A stretch of DNA of 40,925 bases from Candidatus Acetothermia bacterium (GTDB taxonomy: Bacteria; Bipolaricaulota; Bipolaricaulia; RBG-16-55-9; JANLFV01), in NCBI GenBank assembly GCA_024653345.1, contig JANLFV010000014.1, positions 1-40,925 on the forward strand, written 5' to 3'. Positions 3,980 to 40,925 of the stretch are shown in pieces. Position numbers and translations under genes: made by a program. Within the stretch, counting starts at the first letter, position 1. Each line of letters starts with the position of its first letter. The notes beneath the pieces are model-generated. The model saw nothing but the letters and a program-made list of their open reading frames with translations, made no database searches and was not told the DNA's origin.

Positions 3980-5018
3980 CTGGCCCGAGCCGCCGCTTGA
4001 ACTCCGCGATCAGCTCAACCGGTGTGGGATCGACGCCGTTGAGCATCGCCAGGTAGAAGCTGACGAAGTCCCCCAGATAGACGAGCCCCAGGAGTTGGGC
4101 GAGCTTCCCCTTCCCCTCGGCCCGAACCTCCTCGTGCTCGATCCCCCGCTCGGCGAGCAGCCCGGCGAGGATCTCGATCCTCCGCGTGTTCCGCGGATGG
4201 TCATGCTCGCTCCGCAGCAGGATGACCTTCGCCTGGGGCAGCAGCTCGGCTCTCTCCAAGGCCACGACCTCGTTGTGGCACAGCTCGGGGACGGCGTTCC
4301 AGAACGCCGGCTGCTTGCTGTCCTCGTTGATCTCAGTCTTCCAACGCAAGGCTGCGACATCGGTCGTCCCCTCCACGCCATAGATCAGGGGGATCTTGCT
4401 GTAGAGCCCCTGGGCGAGCTGCTTGGCGCGGTTCCTCTCGAGCGGGACCGCTCCGGCCCAGTTGCTCCGGAGAGCCGCGAGAGCACCGGGCAAGGCCGAC
4501 AACTCCTCTCCGAGCTTGCTGAGCCCGGCCCGGCTGAGCAACCCAACGAGCGGCAGGAGGAGGTAACCCACGGCCGCGCGAGGCTGGAGCCCGCCCGGGA
4601 CGCGGATGAGCGGAAGCTTCCGCTCCCTCGCCAGCCGCGTCAGCTCGCCGCCGGAGGAGACGCAGACCAGCTTTGCCCCCTGTTGGATAGCCAGGCTGAC
4701 CGAGCTCAGCGTCTCCTCGGTGTCGCCGGAGTAGCTGATGCCGATCACCAAGGTCTCTCGATCGACGCGAGGGAGCCCATAGCCCCGATGGGCGGTGACC
4801 GGCAGCTCGACGAGCCGGGCGAGGAGGTCTCCGGCGATCCCCGAGCCGCCCATCCCCGTGGTGACAATCCGCTCGACCTCTCTCAGGCCGCCAGGGAGGG
4901 CCATTTCCTCCCCCAGCCGGAGCGCCTCGGCACACTGGTCAGGAAATCCCTCCAAGAGGGCGAGCTTCCCCTGCTCGTCCAGGCTGGCCAGCGCCTCCCG
5001 GTCGTCCAGGTCGATCAT
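3957..5018 (-). CDS. Bifunctional phosphoglucose/phosphomannose isomerase
   Basis: A 353-residue SIS-domain enzyme of the archaeal/bacterial PGI/PMI family, interconverting fructose-6-P with glucose-6-P and mannose-6-P in the cytosol. Signatures are VTTGMGGSGIAGDL (first SIS loop), GISYSGDTEETLS (phosphosugar-binding Ser/Thr loop), WKTEINEDSKQPAFWNAVPELCHNE (Glu and His of the catalytic centre) and PTPVELIAEFKRRL at the C-terminus. The open frame extends upstream to 5951, but that part is antisense to the next gene. The ATG at 5016-5018 follows GGAG and a plausible promoter, and starts directly with MIDLDD. It feeds the phosphofructokinase encoded 1 kb away. Tail-to-tail overlap of 23 bp with the preceding plus-strand gene. 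Confidence 0.88.
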   Translation of the reverse strand: MIDLDDREALASLDEQGKLALLEGFPDQCAEALRLGEEMALPGGLREVERIVTTGMGGSGIAGDLLARLVELPVTAHRGYGLPRVDRETLVIGISYSGDTEETLSSVSLAIQQGAKLVCVSSGGELTRLARERKLPLIRVPGGLQPRAAVGYLLLPLVGLLSRAGLSKLGEELSALPGALAALRSNWAGAVPLERNRAKQLAQGLYSKIPLIYGVEGTTDVAALRWKTEINEDSKQPAFWNAVPELCHNEVVALERAELLPQAKVILLRSEHDHPRNTRRIEILAGLLAERGIEHEEVRAEGKGKLAQLLGLVYLGDFVSFYLAMLNGVDPTPVELIAEFKRRLGPATPGGPR

Positions 5019-5045
5019 TGTCCCGTCTCCGATCGTCGCGAGCCG

Positions 5046-5075
5046 ATCATAGGGCACGGGCCCCGCTGACAGCAA
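5046..5075 (-). promoter_or_regulatory. Promoter for the PGI/PMI gene
   Basis: On the minus strand TTGCTG (5070-5075) is followed after 18 bp by TATGAT (5046-5051). This is about 30 bases before the ATG at 5018 and divergent from the promoter at 5100-5108. Confidence 0.55.
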
Positions 5076-5099
5076 GCACAGCCTGGCCGAGGCCGCCTT

Positions 5100-5108
5100 T
5101 GCTATAAT
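5100..5108 (+). promoter_or_regulatory. Extended -10 promoter, near-leaderless transcript
   Basis: TGC-TATAAT (5100-5108) is a perfect -10 with the TGn extension and no clear -35. The expected transcript start, about 7 bases downstream near 5115, leaves only some six bases before the ATG at 5121. Confidence 0.6.
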
Positions 5109-5120
5109 TGATCGAGGACT

Positions 5121-5933
5121 ATGGCCGTCAAGTATATTGGCCGCGGCGGGGAGGGGAGCGAGGCCCGGATCGAGATCGAGCTCCGCACCGAGTTTCCCGG
5201 GATCGGCGGGACGATCTACACCTACCAGGCCATCCCGACAGCCCGCCGCCAGGAGTATCATCCCGCCCCGAAGAGCGGCCATCGGGAGTTCCTCAAGCAC
5301 GCCCTCCTGAAGAAGCTCGAGGACTACTTCTTCATGAGGGGCGTCTACGGCTATGCCCACATCACCAGGCCGCTCGGCTCGCTCGCCGAGGCCTACCTCT
5401 ACGAATGGGCTTTCGGGCTTGACGGCTTCCCCTGGTATTACGCGGACTCGCGCGGCGAGAGCCTGGTCCAGCTCGACGATTGGGACAGATTCATCCAGGC
5501 CTTCGCCGAGGTCGGGATCGACATGCAGTTGGACTGCACTGATCCGGACGATGGCCGGATCTCCAAGAACATCGTCCACGAGCTGATCAGGACCCTCAGC
5601 CAAGAGAGCGCTTCCCGCCGCCTGAACTGCCTGTGGAAGAGGATCGACTTCGGCGAGCGGAGCATCAGGATCGACTACGATCGGCTCCAGCGATTCCTCC
5701 GCGACCGGGAGCGCGAGCTCCGCCAGGCGCTCCGCCACGGAAGATATGAGCTGATCCAGCTCGCCTGCCGCTACCTGCTCGAGGGCGAGGCGATGGAGCC
5801 AAGGGATGTGGGCCGGCTGGAGGTCCTGGCCCTGGACTACCGCTTCTCCACCCTCCGCCACCTGAACGCCCGGGGCGTCGGGCCGGAGAACAGCCGCGAG
5901 GTCGAGCTCGTCCCCGGAAGTCAGCACCTCTAG
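5121..5933 (+). CDS. Hypothetical protein, conserved-looking, no recognised family
   Basis: A 270-residue soluble protein without signal peptide or membrane segment. I do not recognise it. Visible features: an N-terminal beta-rich part (ARIEIELRTEFPGIGGTIYTYQ), an aromatic stretch with FFMRGVYGYAHITRP and WAFGLDGFPWYY, an acidic segment (DCTDPDDGR) and a basic helical C-terminal third (RLQRFLRDRERELRQALRHGRYELIQLACRYL). The frame has the same GC-rich codon use as its neighbours and a perfect extended -10 promoter just upstream, so it is very likely real. It is divergent from the PGI/PMI gene and 96 bp before phosphofructokinase; a link to sugar metabolism is only suggested by position. Confidence 0.7.
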   Translation: MAVKYIGRGGEGSEARIEIELRTEFPGIGGTIYTYQAIPTARRQEYHPAPKSGHREFLKHALLKKLEDYFFMRGVYGYAHITRPLGSLAEAYLYEWAFGLDGFPWYYADSRGESLVQLDDWDRFIQAFAEVGIDMQLDCTDPDDGRISKNIVHELIRTLSQESASRRLNCLWKRIDFGERSIRIDYDRLQRFLRDRERELRQALRHGRYELIQLACRYLLEGEAMEPRDVGRLEVLALDYRFSTLRHLNARGVGPENSREVELVPGSQHL

Positions 5934-33753: not shown

Positions 33754-34485
33754 GTGGTGCGGAAGAAGGCGACTGAGAGCAATCGAGTGCTGCTCTCCCT
33801 GGAGAGAGCCCTTCGACTGCCGGCCAGCAAGCTCCGCGAGGCGTTCCTGCACAGCTCCTATGTGAACGAGCGCCCGGAGGAGGGGGAGTCGAACGAGCGC
33901 TTGGAATTCCTGGGCGATGCGGTGATCGAACTGGCGATCAGCGAGCACCTCTTTCACGCCTTCCCCTTCCATGCGGAGGGTGATCTGACGAAGATCAAGT
34001 CAGTAGTGGTGAGCGGGCCGGTCTTGGCCGAGCGCGCCACCGCCCTCAACCTGGGCGCGGCCCTGCTCCTCGGCGTGGGGGAAGAGGAGAGCGGCGGGAG
34101 GAGCCGCCGGTCGATCCTCGCCGACGCCTTCGAGGCGCTCGTCGGGCTGATCTTCCGCGAGGCCGGCTACGAGCGGGCAGCCCGGTTTGTGGTGGACCAA
34201 CTCCGCGCCGAGGTGGAGAAGGTCGAGCGGCATCAGCGGATGACGGACTACAAGTCGCTCCTCCAGGAGGAGGCCCAGCGGCGGGGCCTCCGGCCGGTCT
34301 ACACGCTGCTCCAAGAGGAGGGAGCGGATCATCAGAAGGTCTTCACCGTCCGGGTCGAGGTCGCCGGGCTCGAGGGGCTGGGCCGAGGCAGAAGGGTGAA
34401 GGAGGCGGAGCAGGCCGCGGCCAAGCAGGTCTACTTCAAGCTGGAGGGTGCAAGGTCGGAGCAGGCTAATAGGAGGGATGACTGA
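33754..34485 (+). CDS. rnc: Ribonuclease III
   Basis: A 243-residue endonuclease cutting double-stranded RNA, including the stems of rRNA precursors. The catalytic domain has HSSYVNERPEEGESNERLEFLGDAVIELAISEHLF (the RNase III signature with Glu and Asp ligands) and ADAFEALVGLIF (second Asp/Glu pair). The C-terminal third (about residues 165-235) is a double-stranded-RNA-binding domain, with DYKSLLQEEAQRRG and the KEAEQAAAKQVYFKL helix. Start is one of two adjacent GTG codons (33754 or 33757) after CTGGAA. It forms an operon with spoVG, divergent from the 16S gene whose precursor stem it should process. Confidence 0.95.
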   Translation: MVRKKATESNRVLLSLERALRLPASKLREAFLHSSYVNERPEEGESNERLEFLGDAVIELAISEHLFHAFPFHAEGDLTKIKSVVVSGPVLAERATALNLGAALLLGVGEEESGGRSRRSILADAFEALVGLIFREAGYERAARFVVDQLRAEVEKVERHQRMTDYKSLLQEEAQRRGLRPVYTLLQEEGADHQKVFTVRVEVAGLEGLGRGRRVKEAEQAAAKQVYFKLEGARSEQANRRDD

Positions 34486-34560: not shown

Positions 34561-35755
34561 TTATGCCCCCTTCACAAACCCCTCCGGCCAGGGGTAGTCG
34601 GAAGGGCGGAGGTCACCTTCGGCATTGTCGTGGATTTCATTGTCTTTGCCTGCAACCGCCGCCGTAAATATGCGAATCCCACACCCCTCATTGTCAATGA
34701 TCTTATTATCCGATATCTCGGCGAGTATCGAGCCGAGCTGAATGCCATCGCCCTGGTTGTTGGAGATTGTATTCTTAACCAGCGTGACCTGAGTGTTTAC
34801 TCCTCCTAAGTGTATAGCTGTCCCCCAATTTTCTTCAAGTTGATTGTCTATGATGACAGCTTGGCCACTCAATATCCAAATTCCTGTGCCATTCCGCTTG
34901 AACTGATTACCCTGTAGATAGACCTGAGGACCCTCACCGCCCACATCGAGCGCTCTGCTATTGTTCAAGAACTCATTGTCTTCAAGCCTCACCTGCGCTA
35001 GACCGACCACGGAGATGCCCCACACTGCATGGCTGTAGATAGAGTTGCCCGTGAGGATAGCTTGAACGGTGTCACCGAGGTGGACCGCCACCGTTGCATG
35101 AGCTCCGATCCAGGTATTCGCGATTGTGACCTGAGAGTCTCCTATAGCTTCGATCCCCGTATTCCCTTCAAGAACCATGCTATCCGCGATCGTCACGATG
35201 GCAGACTCGATCAGGAGACCGAAGCCCCCGATATTGTCGATGATGCTATTTTTTAACAACTACTTGTGCTCCGGACTGCACGGCAATCCCGTGGTCTTCG
35301 ATCTCGACTTGCTTGATAGACTCGTAGCCTTTCGTGATCGAAAGGCCGTCTATCACTACATGATAGCCTTCCCGGACCTGGATCACTGGGCCTGGAATGG
35401 CTCCCGGCCCGCGAATGACTGTCTCCTCCTGAGCGCGGAGGATATCGGCTTCCTCAAAGGCCTCGCTGAGATAAAGGCCTTTCAAATCACTTACGAAACC
35501 GTCTCTCGCCCCTTGCAGGGTGAGGTCCTTTGCGATTGCCAGACTTTCCGCATACTCCCCTGGGGCGATCTGGATGACATCCCCAGGGTTGGCAGCATCA
35601 ACCGCCGCTTGGATACTGGAGAATGGGCAGCCCTGAGGGCAGACGAGCAGCGAGGCCACCCGGGACACTGCTGAGGTCATTACCCCGGTTGCAACTGCCA
35701 AAGGCAGTAGCAACCCTAGCCTAATAGACTCGGAACGCCTTCCGAAGTTGAACAT
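34561..35755 (-). pseudogene. Secreted right-handed beta-helix protein 1, split by one frameshift
   Basis: Two frames join into one protein of about 397 residues. The first (35246-35755) has a signal peptide, LVCPQGCPFSSIQAAVDAANPGDVIQIAPGEYAES and the first coils, and ends GAQVVVKK-stop. The second (34561-35259) resumes with KNSIIDNIGGFGLL and runs through about nine parallel beta-helix turns to EGDLRPSDYPWPEGFVKGA. The break is at a run of six A's (35250-35255 region, transcript sense AAAAAATAG). Five A's would restore the frame. It may be a sequencing error, a true mutation or a slippage site. Start ATG 35755 follows a perfect TAAGGAGGTG. Pectate-lyase-like folds of this type bind or cleave polysaccharides; no catalytic set is visible. 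Confidence 0.8.
34567..34599 (-). repeat. 33-bp tail repeat, copy A
   Basis: This encodes the end of DYPWPEGFVKG. It differs from copies B (35858-35890) and C (37859-37891) at only a few positions, mostly in the variable codon. It contains the inverted pair ACCCC/GGGGT. Confidence 0.85.
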
Positions 35756-35778
35756 CTCTCGCCACCTCCTTAGGCTTT

Positions 35779-35807
35779 GGGGCCGGTAATTTTAAGCCCT
35801 CGGCCCC
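35779..35807. promoter_or_regulatory. Hairpin in the leader of beta-helix gene 1
   Basis: GGGGCCG (35779-35785) pairs with CGGCCCC (35801-35807) around an AT-rich loop with TTTTAA. It lies 14 bases upstream of the ribosome-binding site of the beta-helix 1 gene and 45 bases after the stop of beta-helix 2. It might terminate the upstream message partially or control translation. Confidence 0.45.
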
Positions 35808-35851
35808 TCTATCCTCTGTCATGAGCCAATGAAGTGCCAGAAGAAATAGGC

Positions 35852-36997
35852 TCAAGGCCCCTTCACAAACCCCGGAGGCCAGGGGTAGTCAGGAGGGCAG
35901 AGGTCGAGCCCGTGGGCAGGAGGGGGAGGGCAGAGGGCTGATCCTTCAGCTCCTGGATACCTGCACTCATAACCCTGGCTGTTATCATGAACCTCATTGG
36001 CCCAGCCGGTCAGCACTCCTTTGAAGGGATACTCCGGGTCAAATCCATAAGGGGGTTGGATCGAATTACAGTCTGCAGCTGGGTTTGTTACGGCAACAGC
36101 GACCCCGGCCCAGCCATTATGATGGATCCTATTATTGAGGATGTCAGCCATCCCATTTCCGGCAATAACTATGCCCTCAAGCATGTTACTGGAAATCTCA
36201 TTGTCGTAGATACTTGCCTGAGCCATGGCCCTAAAGGTCACCCATCCTGTACCTGCATAAAATTCCTGCCCTACCTGAATTCCTATTGCGCCGTTATCAT
36301 GAACGAAATTTCCCCAAATGCGCGCCTGAGATTCTTGGCGAACAAAGATTCCGGGGTTATACCGGCCGCCAGTAATTACATTATCATCATAAATAGAAGC
36401 CTGTGCTCTACCCGCTATTGATATCCCGTAAGTATTCCTGATCGTGTTGTCAAATATTGCGACTTGTGTAGTATCTACTGCAACAATACCTGTCCCATTG
36501 ATGTTGTGCAGATGGTTGTTAAAGATGCTCGCATCCGATCTCCCACGAATGGCGATGCCGACCTCATCCCCGACGGACAGGGTTTGGGGTGTCCAATTGC
36601 CACTAATGGTGAACCCTGTGATCACTACATGAGCGTCTTCAATTACCATTATAGGAAGGGAGTATCGGTACCCTGGCGATCCCCAACGGAGATGAGCACC
36701 GCCCCTGATGATCACCTTCTCGGGGTCTTCACCCTCCAGGATGAGGTCCTTACTGATGGTAATGCTTTCCCCATCAGCGGGCGTATATGTGCCCTCTTTG
36801 ACCAAGATATGCGTCCACGCCGGTGCGGCGTCGATCGCCTCCTGGATCGAGGAGTAGGGGCAGCCGCTGGGGCAGACAGTAAAGTCGGCCACGGTAGTGG
36901 GCGGCTCCGGCGAGCCACCAACTACCAGAATAGCCAGCATACCGATCGTAACTATCCCTAGCAGAAGAATCCCTGTCTTCCCTTCAACTATGCTCAT
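35852..36997 (-). CDS. Secreted right-handed parallel beta-helix protein 2 (intact)
   Basis: A 381-residue secreted protein, the only unbroken member of the three. The signal peptide spans residues 1-28 (ILLLGIVTIGMLAILVVGG). The entry motif is FTVCPSGCPYSSIQEAIDAAPAWTHILVKEGTY. About ten parallel beta-helix coils follow with the N-N-x-I/V-x-x-N asparagine-ladder rhythm (SIFNNHLHNINGTGIVAV, ADILNNRIHHNGWAGVAV). The Cys/Pro-rich end closes with LCPPDYPWPPGFVKGP. ATG 36997 is preferred over a frame start at 37027 because AAAGGAGG lies seven bases upstream. Relatives act on polysaccharides or form surface fibres; no pectate-lyase catalytic residues can be pointed out, so the role is open. Confidence 0.88.
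   Translation of the reverse strand: MSIVEGKTGILLLGIVTIGMLAILVVGGSPEPPTTVADFTVCPSGCPYSSIQEAIDAAPAWTHILVKEGTYTPADGESITISKDLILEGEDPEKVIIRGGAHLRWGSPGYRYSLPIMVIEDAHVVITGFTISGNWTPQTLSVGDEVGIAIRGRSDASIFNNHLHNINGTGIVAVDTTQVAIFDNTIRNTYGISIAGRAQASIYDDNVITGGRYNPGIFVRQESQARIWGNFVHDNGAIGIQVGQEFYAGTGWVTFRAMAQASIYDNEISSNMLEGIVIAGNGMADILNNRIHHNGWAGVAVAVTNPAADCNSIQPPYGFDPEYPFKGVLTGWANEVHDNSQGYECRYPGAEGSALCPPPPAHGLDLCPPDYPWPPGFVKGP
35858..35890 (-). repeat. 33-bp tail repeat, copy B
   Basis: Codes for the DYPWPPGFVKG end of beta-helix protein 2. The silent codon positions are the same as in copies A and C (TAC CCC TGG CC-, GGG TTT GTG AAG GGG). Confidence 0.85.
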
Positions 36998-37048
36998 TCT
37001 CTCCCTCCTTTCGTCCCCACCATTCACCCTTGCAACAATCGGCCTGCC

Positions 37049-37678
37049 TTAGGGGACAGACTGCATGCGGACCTGGCCATCCATAAGGCTGACTGGTGGC
37101 GCAGTAACTATGGTTGTAGAGATATCAGATTCTTCTTGATTCGAAGGAGGAGGCTCCGCACCTCCACCGCCAGAGCCATGGGGCTTGCAAAGCCCCATGG
37201 ATTCGCACAACTTCTGCGCCTCCTCTAGGTCGATCCCATTCCCATATACCGCTAGAACCTTGCCGTCAACAATTACCACAAGAGGATATGTAGGTATACT
37301 CGCCAGCGACTGACACAGGCTTTCCACGGCTCCTTCGGCAGCACCATCGATCACCAGGACTATGACCGGCTGCCCCTGGCACATGGGCGGATCAGTATGA
37401 TAGACATTGCCTATCGCGCGAATAGCTGACTTAACACGATCAACAACCCTTTGCAGATCATAAGGATCGTTCTCCAAGTATGGTTCGACCAGAATGTAGA
37501 CGGTAGTGTCTTCCTCACCGTTCGTTGCTATTATATCGATCTCATAACTATCTGCCAATTTCTGCAACGTCCAGCCCCGCCCCTCCTGATCTAGCAGTTG
37601 GAGGGAGAGCTGGATGGTTCTCTGGATTCTGGCTATATTCTCCGTAGCATCTTCGATCTCTCTCGCTGTCCTGTACAA
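37049..37678 (-). CDS. Unknown protein, probably 5'-truncated paralogue of the gene at 39229
   Basis: I do not recognise this protein. From a TTG (37676-37678) it reads 209 residues: a helical part (TAREIEDATENIARIQRTIQLSLQLL), a mixed alpha/beta part (VIVLVIDGAAEGAVESLCQSL, YPLVVIVDGKVLAVYGNG, LEEAQKLCESMGLC) and a Gly/Pro/Ser-rich tail without any domain. The frame is open further upstream to 37849, directly after the stop of beta-helix 3, with no ATG or GTG. That extension contains GLASQHFPGAPPLARSR, resembling GLSGFQQWAGLPGSDQSRR of the larger protein at 39229. The C-terminal pattern strand-G-G-N-EE-x-QK-x-C is also shared. I infer a paralogue that lost its 5' part and start. It precedes beta-helix 2 by 51 bp. 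Confidence 0.5.
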   Translation of the reverse strand: MYRTAREIEDATENIARIQRTIQLSLQLLDQEGRGWTLQKLADSYEIDIIATNGEEDTTVYILVEPYLENDPYDLQRVVDRVKSAIRAIGNVYHTDPPMCQGQPVIVLVIDGAAEGAVESLCQSLASIPTYPLVVIVDGKVLAVYGNGIDLEEAQKLCESMGLCKPHGSGGGGAEPPPSNQEESDISTTIVTAPPVSLMDGQVRMQSVP

Positions 37679-37849
37679 GCCTGAGATGCTGGCATTGATG
37701 GCCAGCCTCCCTAAGAGTCTTGCAATATCGTCAGATAAATCGAAAGACCGTTTGGGGTCGCATCTTGCAATCCGACTTCTAGCAAGCGGCGGAGCCCCGG
37801 GGAAATGTTGCGATGCAAGACCGGACCCAGCACTTGTGCACCATTTGCT

Positions 37850-39141
37850 CTATCCTGACCCCTTCACAAACCCCGCAGGCCAGGGGTAATCTTCCGGGCA
37901 GAGGTTCCCCTCAGTGTTGCCTTCAAGACCCTACCCACCTCTTTCGCATATCTGCTGCAACTCCTCACTGGGTTGACCCAATATATCTGCGTAATTAACA
38001 CCATTGTCTGCAATATAATTTCTTGACATGATATTACATCCTTGATATTATATACCCTTAGACCAGTATCTTTGTTATGGGTGACGACATTCCCGATAAT
38101 TTGCACCTCACCACTCCAGATAATGAGACCATCCCTTTCATTGTTTATAATATTGCTCTCTTCAATGAGGCAATCGCTGTCTGACAGCTCCACAGCATTA
38201 ATATTCTACTCCAATAGGTTATCTGGGATTGACACCCTTCGGCTGAAGTATGCATGGATTCCAGTATTATTGTGCTTAAAAACATTCCCCTGTATAGTAA
38301 TATTTTCGGTATTTAAAATGTAAACACCCCTATTATTTCTAAAAATTTGGTTAAGTCCAATGAATACATCTTCAGACTCCCAAACCTCAATCGCATTCCC
38401 CCGTCCTAATGGCGGTTGGTTGTTGTAGAGACTGTTATTTACGATAGCTACGCTCATGGCCTCACCAACCCCGGGAATTCGGCCGACTTTGAGGAGGCGG
38501 ATGCCAACAAAGGTGGTTGTAATAGAGTTGTCAGCGATAAGTAAGTCAGCTAAAGTACCAGTAAGAAGGATCCCGCCTATCTTAAAGCTGTTGTTGCGGA
38601 TGAAGCCTCTTACCAAACCTACTATCTGAAGCCCTCCCTCGATAGCCAGTCCTTCAAGGCCTACCACGAGATAATTCGAGCTAGCGATGAAGACAGTTGG
38701 TCGCAGAACTTCCTCTGTACTTAACTCTCCTGTCTGAATACCGGTATTAACAGCAATACTGCGGAGAGTAACCAGTTCCTGTCCAACACCTTGTAACCAG
38801 ACGCTCTTAAGAATGACCAGGTTCTCTACGTAGATGCCGGGTAAGATGTGGATAAGGGGGATTTTGAAAGGGGTCTCCAAGAAGGGGAGAAGAGGAGGGG
38901 TATCGGGGGCTGCATCGATAGCGTCCTGAATCTTTTGGAACTGGCAGATCGGGGGCCCTTCGGGGCAAACTGTGAGCTCTACTGCAGGCTCGATTGGCAG
39001 CCATGGCTGAAGTGGTGTCTGAGGTTGACCCACTCCCCTTTCCATTACTGCGGCAGTCTGAAACAGGGATAGCGTCCCTCCTCCGACTACTCCTGACATG
39101 AATAACACCAACAATACTATCCCTATTCCCAATCTTCTCAT
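37850..39141 (-). pseudogene. Secreted right-handed beta-helix protein 3, three lesions
   Basis: The gene starts at ATG 39141 (GGAAGGAGGGAG upstream) with a signal peptide (GIGIVLLVLFMSGVVGGG). The entry motif LTVCPEGPPICQFQKIQDAIDAAPD follows, then about nine beta-helix coils. An in-frame TAG at 38206-38208 stops the reading after IPDNLLE. The same frame then continues the helix (NINAVELSDSDCLIEESNIINNERDGLIIW). Near 38020-38040 the frame shifts to NYIADNGVNYADI. A second TAG lies at 37931-37933, and the usual end NLCPEDYPWPAGFVKGSG stops at 37850-37852. Several independent lesions make this a decaying copy rather than a recoded gene. The first 311 residues could still be secreted. It is AT-richer than the left part of the window. 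Confidence 0.8.
37859..37891 (-). repeat. 33-bp tail repeat, copy C
   Basis: Encodes the DYPWPAGFVKG end of the decaying beta-helix 3. It is still nearly identical to copies A and B although the rest of the gene has accumulated lesions. Confidence 0.85.
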
Positions 39142-39228: not shown

Positions 39229-40871
39229 TTATAGAGATAGCATACAGGTCATCCCAGGAGGGCACTCACTGGGATCATCGACAAGTGGTGGTGCAGCCCC
39301 GCTTGCTGGGGAAGATGAATCACCTCCCGAAGCGTTGCCACCATTACCCTGTTGTTCCTGACAACCAAATCCTTCACAAGCATCGCAACTGGCATTTCCA
39401 GTAGCCTCCTTACAAGCCATCTTCTGGAGCTCTTCGTCCTTGAAATATTGGCAATTACCTCCCACGCACTCCCATTCGAGTCCGTTCGGAGTCATCCGCC
39501 AGACGAGAATCGCTACATTCGGATCAATCCCCCACCTGTCCTTTATTGCCTGTAGCGCTGCTTCCGTACCCTTAGCATCCATATTAGTGGAGCCATAGGT
39601 GACAATTCCACGATCCAGTGGCTTCCCGAGGATATCTCGGGGTATTTGCCGATCTAAGATAGCCAACGCTTGCTCAATCCAATTCAAGATCTCATTGACA
39701 TTAGCCGCACAGTTCTCACAGTGATCGCCACGACCGACAATTGTAATCCCTTTAGTATCGATCACGATCGAGAGAGGGAGCCCCCACATCTGCCAGGTTG
39801 TTTGACCGGGTGCATTTGGAATTCGCATCACTATGAAAGCATTCTGATGCTTCTCTGGATCAAAAGGTGTGCCATCCTCTCCAATAATTCCTACAAGCTG
39901 CCATGGTTGATCAAAGGAGTCCCTTGTAAGTCCCTGCTGAATAATATTACAAAGGATGGTAATACTACCTACTATAATCTCTACACGGCGGCTTTGATCG
40001 CTGCCTGGGAGCCCTGCCCACTGCTGAAAACCCGAGAGGCCCTTCAATAGCTGGCAACCAGGGCCACAGGTGAAAGGTATAATAGCAGCCTTGTACTGCC
40101 TTATGATATGGCGAGCTATTGCCTCCACCTGATCTGTGAAACTTTCGGCAGCATCTGTACCGAATGTTTCCTCTATAGCCCTATAAGCATTTGCCCAGTT
40201 AGTGACAAAGGCCCCGGCAAAGTCATTGGCAGCCTGTGGAGTCATAGCAGGAGGAATGGACCCTGCTAAATAGAATGCTATCTCGGTCCCTAGCGCAACC
40301 ATCTCGCCCATTCGGCTAAGGGGTGGCTGTGTTGCCAGGTCGATAGCCGCAGCCCTAAGTCCGTGTGCAAACCCTTGCAAGAAGCTTCGGGCCTCTTGGA
40401 AATCCTGGGTGTCCAAAGCCAGTAATAACGCTTGCTCAACTTTGTTTAAGCCTTGCAGCAGTAGGCTGTCGTAGACCATATCGAATTGGCCATTCTCGAG
40501 AGCCTCTGCCAAGGCTTGCAGCCAAGTCGCTAGCAAAGTGGGCTCTATGGATTCCAGAATTTGCAAAGCCTCTAAGAGGCGCAAGTTTGGCGTTCCCAGA
40601 GAGTCCAGGGCTGGCGGCAGCACGACCGCGATGCTCATCCAGGACTGCAACTGGACCAGATCGATTTCCTTGAAGCCTGCTAGCAGCACATTACCCCCCT
40701 TTGGCCGGTCCCAGGCGTAGACCATGCCACAAAAGCCGGAGCGCACAAGGATATTATGGGCTTCTAAGGCCTTCTCAAAAGCATCATCAGACTCATACCA
40801 TTGCTGATACCACTTCCTCCAAGCGACAGAATCGAAGACCTTCGGGCCATCCCAGGGGCCGAGGATTCGGC
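39229..40871 (-). CDS. Large unknown protein with redoxin-like segment, 5' end cut at IS junction
   Basis: The reading frame gives 505 residues from a GTG at 40746, but stays open through PWDGPKVFDSVAWRKWYQQW and EKALEAHNILVRSGFCGMVY up to the IS boundary. The true start is therefore lost. I do not recognise the family. It has a long helical part (about residues 30-215), a pair of cysteines in FTCGPGCQLL, and a segment WGLPLSIVIDTKGITIVGRG then DHCENCAANVNEI that resembles the cis-Pro and strand pair of redoxins/thioredoxins. That is weak evidence. After GGNCQYFKDEELQKMACKEA comes a Cys-, Gly- and Ser-rich tail (DACEGFGCQEQQGNGGN) ending CPPGMTCMLSL. No signal peptide can be judged. It precedes beta-helix 3 by 87 bp. 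Confidence 0.6.
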
Positions 40872-40925
40872 TGTAGTGGACCCCTCGGATTGGACACCTC
40901 TGTTAGGGAGGGGTAAGGTCCAAGG
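40872..40925 (+). mobile_element. Terminus of an IS-like element (IS3-like), cut by window end
   Basis: Position 40872 begins TGTAGTGGACCCCT, five bases, TTGGACA, CCTCTG, TAGGGAGG, the inverted counterpart of 1-55. It runs out of the window. The last bases (GGGAGGGGTAAGG) could be a ribosome-binding region for a transposase gene just outside; that is inference. Confidence 0.6.

Follow-up and report, generated by a model that had tools for sequence, protein, structure and literature searches.

The locus described here raises the question of why the ends of beta-helix genes should be kept nearly base for base when the bodies of the same genes have diverged. The window (the whole stretch of DNA that was analysed, 40,925 nucleotides long, which is contig C5 of a genome of 1.71 Mb in 31 contigs) contains three such genes, one intact and two damaged, and it was confirmed in the sequence that all three end in DYPWPxGFVKG before the stop codon, as an earlier sequence-only reading had stated. 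The genes, their tags and their neighbours are as follows.

33754..34485, forward strand: open reading frame convergent with gene 1, on the right flank of the array, which we take from sequence recognition rather than a model search to be an RNase III gene
34561..34599, reverse strand: tag 1, with the sequence DYPWPEGFVKGA and stop, ending gene 1
34561..35755, reverse strand: gene 1, a beta-helix gene (Pfam) with a frame break in an A run near 35249-35262
35852..35890, reverse strand: tag 2, with the sequence DYPWPPGFVKGP and stop, ending the intact gene 2
35852..36997, reverse strand: gene 2, encoding an intact secreted right-handed beta-helix protein, 381 amino acids from ATG
37049..37678, reverse strand: companion open reading frame located between genes 3 and 2, unassigned to any family (no Pfam or NCBIfam match)
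37850..37891, reverse strand: tag 3, with the sequence DYPWPAGFVKGSG and stop, ending the broken gene 3
37850..39141, reverse strand: gene 3, a beta-helix gene interrupted by a stop at 38206 and by frame breaks beyond it
39229..40746, reverse strand: companion open reading frame immediately upstream of gene 3, unassigned to any family (no Pfam match)

The DNA of the three tags was found to be the same in 29 of 33 positions (the differing positions are 3 and 15-17), and the protein identity of the helix bodies to relatives is about 25-31%, so that the near-identity of the tag DNA and the divergence of the bodies claimed in that reading both hold. The pattern GAYTAYCCNTGGCC gave 3 matches in the window, relative to 0.3 expected, and 9 in the whole genome, relative to 1 for a reversed control pattern. 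The genome has nine tagged ends, and a degenerate DNA search of it revealed no stray non-coding copy of the tag.

Gene 1 is split into two open reading frames (35755-35246 and 35259-34561), its break in the A run may be due to either phase variation or sequencing error, and its tag reads DLRPSDYPWP because the LCP cysteine is replaced by R. Gene 2 has an alternative GTG start at 37027, and the tag of gene 3 is readable solely within a 26-codon open frame. Frame breaks are common in these beta-helix genes, being present in two of the three genes of the window array and in two of the three genes of an array on contig C14 (L136; breaks at 2657-2681 and 4859-5885). The window and C14 also share an identical 55-base end (window positions 40870-40924, C14 positions 1-55), which has the look of an assembly overlap at k=55 and suggests that the two arrays branch from one upstream sequence, through duplication of a flank or variation between strains. 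The Bipolaricaulota contig JARYLH010000094.1 (L150), filed in a Methanosuratincola-labelled MAG, was 99.97% identical to the window over 3374 bases with one mismatch, and in it gene 2 and the broken gene 3 end, including the break from 39019 downward, are unchanged. We regard it as most probably a misplaced contig from the window's organism, apparently the result of a binning error.

The tag extends beyond the three window paralogues, the narrow occurrence for which the sequence-only reading had thought recent duplication or conversion a sufficient explanation: its DNA form has matches in 13 of the 19 genomes of the window's order. A profile built from the final 40 residues has matches in 59 of 100 genomes of the phylum (E up to 0.1), the strong ones being concentrated in that order. 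A scan of about 85,000 species, with one genome per species, gave 19 confirmed loci, all in Bipolaricaulota or Acetothermia except for the misplaced contig. In the searches made, the motif is limited to Bipolaricaulota and the DNA-level form to one order. The tag profile had 0 matches in the PDB sequence set, and a literature search for Bipolaricaulota beta-helix or surface proteins returned nothing relevant.

The neighbours of the window genes recur elsewhere. A relative of the 37049..37678 frame lies upstream of a tagged gene on contig C30 (tblastn, 34% over 140 amino acids), and relatives of the 39229..40746 frame are present at six other beta-helix loci across the order (L274, L201, L261, L259, L191 and L258; 25-36% identity, tblastn E to 1e-17), upstream of the beta-helix genes. 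An RNase III gene also lies near a syntenic tagged gene in another genus. At L258, L259, L261, L271 and L274, the tagged or alternative-end gene is preceded by genes for large secreted proteins in which Ig-like stretches (VGLPIEKTLTVKNEG) are repeated; these genes have high DNA identity between loci.

At the protein level, the motif runs on from the last coil in the aligned matches, as FxGxIxGxGNEIxxNxxxDLCPxDYPWPxxF. The end of a single beta-helix family is therein GxxNEIxxNxxxDLCPxDYPWPxGF, at a fixed spacing to the last coil. Matches are nearly always located at the C-terminus of beta-helix reading frames, with 2-5 residues after the motif in most copies, and the residues L, C, P, D, Y, P, W, P and F of LCPxDYPWPxxF are invariant in proteins with bodies about 28% identical. 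Distant members from the phylum retain the framework of the motif but differ in its residues (DFKWPTGFKR, DYNWPPGFVK and PPYPGPPWPADF), and therefore the motif is old and constrained at the protein level. The Pfam model Beta_helix matched 15 of the 15 tagged proteins scanned, and no other fold was found among those checked, so that the count of unrelated folds suggested in the sequence-only reading came to none. Gene 2 matched Beta_helix with an E-value of 1e-15 and 58.2 bits (cut-off 25.9), and also NosD and DUF1565, whereas it scored 37.7 bits with the NosD copper-maturation model (NCBIfam TIGR04247), the threshold of which is above 300. The matched ranges of the Pfam and NCBIfam models do not cover the LCPxDYPWP cap. 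In the AF2 model of the gene 2 protein (mean pLDDT 81.7), the helix is confidently predicted, and the tag region (pLDDT about 77-79) is predicted to form strands at residues 364-367 and 377-379; the best solved-structure matches of this model are the alginate epimerases AlgE4 and AlgG.

A cysteine located 21-39 residues before the LCP was found in 29 of 29 tagged proteins, compared to 28% by chance (binomial p about 1e-16 for an expected 0.28, with rows that are not independent), and in 27 of the 29 it is the only cysteine in a 75-residue stretch. The sole tagged protein without the LCP cysteine is that of the broken window gene 1. The alternative C-termini PSPELKQKCEG, DVCPSALEF and DGQVCLP have a cysteine near the end as well. 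Motif, fold and two-cysteine pattern are therefore common properties of the tagged family, and because the upstream cysteine is present in all 29 proteins, we infer that the tag is a disulfide-stapled C-terminal cap that most likely closes the helix end. Two further C-terminal motifs were observed: QPSPELKQKCEG[GNSK] followed by the stop, in f3 sister beta-helices (L209-L218), which is conserved at the DNA level too, and the variant DVCPxxLxFLxTxEGG at L248 (G053:C61), L128 (G000:C11) and L130 (G085:C62).

The location of the tag at the extreme C-terminus, its strong conservation and the N-terminal hydrophobic segments of the proteins would also suit a signal for sorting or anchoring that some unknown protease or transpeptidase recognises, and in G054 (L277, C25) and G049 (L279, C110) a beta-helix gene ending in DLCPADFKWP has an exosortase-like gene about 3 kb upstream. 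However, we consider such a signal improbable. The tag is carried by one fold only; the presence of exosortase-like genes (9 of 19 genomes) does not track the tag, and they are absent from G000, G050, G055 and G057, all of which bear it; a sortase, the kind of gene that the sequence-only reading had proposed to look for, was found in 0 of the 19 genomes of the order; the tag is followed by neither a membrane helix nor a basic tail; and the conserved cysteine pair that brackets it fits a fold element. Non-coding copies of the tag, described below, would need another explanation. The statement that this is not a PEP-CTERM or LPXTG signal is thus borne out, and the suggestion of an undescribed surface-attachment tag appears unsupported in view of the single fold, the cysteine bracket and the lack of a sortase.

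The conservation of the tag DNA was evaluated codon by codon. Among 36 coding tags, GAC was used in 32/35, TAC in 32/34, CCC in 32/36 and GGG in 27/35, whereas the frequencies of these codons elsewhere in window genes were 54, 54, 33 and 39%, respectively, and the proline of the neighbouring LCP was CCC in only 15/36 tags. Codon bias was rejected as the cause of GAC-TAC-CCC, since usage in the other window genes fails to explain it, and so was next-base context, since conditioning within the same genes leaves the excess. In the two best-sampled genera, the third positions of D, Y and P were the same in 354/354 between-genome comparisons, which are not phylogenetically independent counts, whereas third-position identity in the adjacent DLCP codons was 0.49. 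Within the tag itself, the value was 1.00 for D, Y and P and 0.76 for P, x, G and F, which argues against simple homogenisation because that process should not end partway through the tag. In other families, too, GAC-TAC-CCC predominates, which within-genome exchange fails to account for. Genome-specific homogenisation of the tails was weak (permutation p 0.086) and is not relied on.

A tagged gene that is present in single copy in G049, G053 and G054, where it lies in synteny close to rpe, a zinc protease gene and RNase III, served as a control. The tag core of this orthologue was 75-83% identical and its upstream 180 bases 78-88%, compared to 96% identity for non-orthologous tags in the same three genomes. 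Therefore, protein constraint alone does not force near-identity. The fixed GAC-TAC-CCC found across families, conserved beyond the rest of the tag, is not accounted for by codon usage, next-base context or within-genome exchange, and this core may therefore have a dedicated DNA-level role.

It was also found that, in the f3 family, tag DNA is present just after the stop codons of other genes. Such copies follow sister beta-helices ending in PSPELKQKCEG (G055:C69, G054:C7, G051:C133 and G050:C11), a beta-helix ending in DVCPSALEFLKTPEGGQYP (G053:C61), a beta-helix ending in DGQVCLP (G049:C28), and genes that we take from sequence recognition to encode a PQQ-like propeller (G054:C26), a WD40-like protein (G049:C198) and, with the tag 20 bases past the stop, a dehydrogenase (G057:C66). 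Some other non-coding copies are relics of dead genes, and two are decayed (G057:C49 and G050:C44). Read-through or frameshifting into the non-coding tag was rejected because the offsets from stop to tag vary among copies.

The flanks of tags were compared over up to 10 kb to either side. The right flank was collinear for 1.4-10 kb, and the gene on the left was different or gone, in all 9 testable pairs; the edges of the collinear blocks fell from -14 to +8 relative to the tag for eight pairs and at +42/+100 for one. At the proS locus, the right side is collinear in four genomes, starting at -14 to +3 of the tag, and the left side holds a different gene in each of G050, G053 and G054, and just a relic in G051. 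Like behaviour was found for the right flanks of G050:C11b/G054:C7, G051:C87/G053:C28 and G049:C18/G054:C26b. Conversely, the homology of shared bodies breaks off at +31 relative to the tag, with different flanks beyond that point, in G050:C11/G053:C24 and G054:C7/G057:C68, and the left neighbours are kept with a changed body in G053:C25/G054:C16 and G050:C11/G054:C7. The pair G050:C33/G054:C12, compared up to 1 kb, has the same body type. Thus, one chromosomal site carries different paralogues with the joint in the shared end, which is the pattern that marks recombining paralogues of the bab kind, and reassortment at the tag occurs in the f3 family of the order. In the window's own genome, a mosaic was seen at the following position.

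35558..35906, reverse strand: mosaic block of 349 bases, 93% identical to C14:3289-3637

This block spans tag 2, the intergenic region and the start of gene 1, ending inside that gene, and its left edge is 16 bases before tag 2. The genomes in which reassortment was found are all metagenome assemblies in which several contigs stop near tags, and false joins at short repeats are possible for single cases. However, assemblies from different groups agree on the reassorted loci, and non-coding copies with changed spacers would not be made by a false join.

We therefore favour, as the probable though by no means certain explanation, a structural cap whose gene ends serve as recombination joints between chromosomal sites. 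Such joints account for the near-identity of the tags better than a sorting signal does. Of the two readings offered from the sequence alone, gene conversion or recombination at the 3' ends agrees with the reassorted bodies and 3' flanks, the non-coding copies and the diverged syntenic control, whereas the sorting or anchoring tag is not supported. In the protein, the last coil GxxNEIxxN would be followed by the chain DLCPxDYPWPxGF as a C-terminal cap, the LCP cysteine pairing with the cysteine 21-39 residues earlier and stapling the tail over the helix end. In the DNA, crossovers in or beside the tag would retain the 3' flank and swap the gene on the left, and in some cases the tag would remain past a new stop as non-coding DNA. 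The exchange may proceed by general homologous recombination through the short conserved ends, a mechanism proposed because the search for a recombinase dedicated to the tag found no candidate enzymes. That some 24-35 bases within the coding end are conserved as DNA to form a dedicated recombination site as well as a protein cap, exchanging cassettes including unrelated folds at fixed sites, we regard as unlikely.

Other explanations of the conserved DNA were given lower weight. The fixed third positions of D, Y and P, CCCC and GGGG runs that could pair, and the persistence of non-coding copies just past stop codons would be consistent with selection on an RNA element, for example a terminator or a 3' hairpin, sharing bases with the gene end and persisting after loss of the frame. 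This is doubtful at best: RNAalifold gave two pairs at -1.3 kcal/mol, the CCCC/GGGG stem lacks covariation, fold z-scores ranged from -1.6 to +1.6, the stable hairpin and T-run of an intrinsic terminator were not found, as no T-run follows, and some of the non-coding copies are decayed. A short mobile element, such as a REP/RAYT repeat or an integron attC site, would agree with the precise edges and with the copies beside unrelated genes, but seems highly improbable, as G050-G057 have no Y1 transposase (RAYT), the one or few integrase-type genes per g4/g5 genome were not noted at tags, and inspection by eye revealed no attC-like core. We give very little credence to recent duplication alone, in which near-identity would reflect the youth of the paralogues. 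The tandem arrays and many broken copies are in keeping with it, but the low identity of the bodies already contradicts it, as do the scrambled third positions of DLCP beside the fixed ones of D, Y and P.

If recombination joints in a structural cap are indeed the explanation, an uncultured, deep-branching phylum reshuffles secreted beta-helix and propeller genes via a very short end that is both structural and recombinogenic. LCPxDYPWPxGF would then be a testable cap motif by which these proteins can be recognised, and the family would clearly illustrate why near-identity of DNA at the ends of genes should not be taken for a sorting signal.

The tag resembles the signals of the PEP-CTERM/exosortase and LPXTG/sortase systems in that it is a short conserved C-terminal motif on secreted proteins, but it differs from them in having no membrane helix or basic tail, in occurring on a single fold and in having no co-occurring enzyme. 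The tagged proteins share their fold, and Pfam matches, with the secreted right-handed beta-helix proteins of the NosD, Beta_helix and DUF1565 groups, from which the conserved LCPxDYPWP cap sets the tagged family apart. The bab outer-membrane paralogues of Helicobacter pylori occupy different loci in different strains and recombine via shared 5' and 3' ends, and their shared 3' region comprises hundreds of bases in one gene family (PMC4552749). The present system is similar in that paralogous surface-protein genes at differing chromosomal sites are joined via shared ends, whereas the joint is only about 35-50 bases long and has unrelated propeller genes on its left too.
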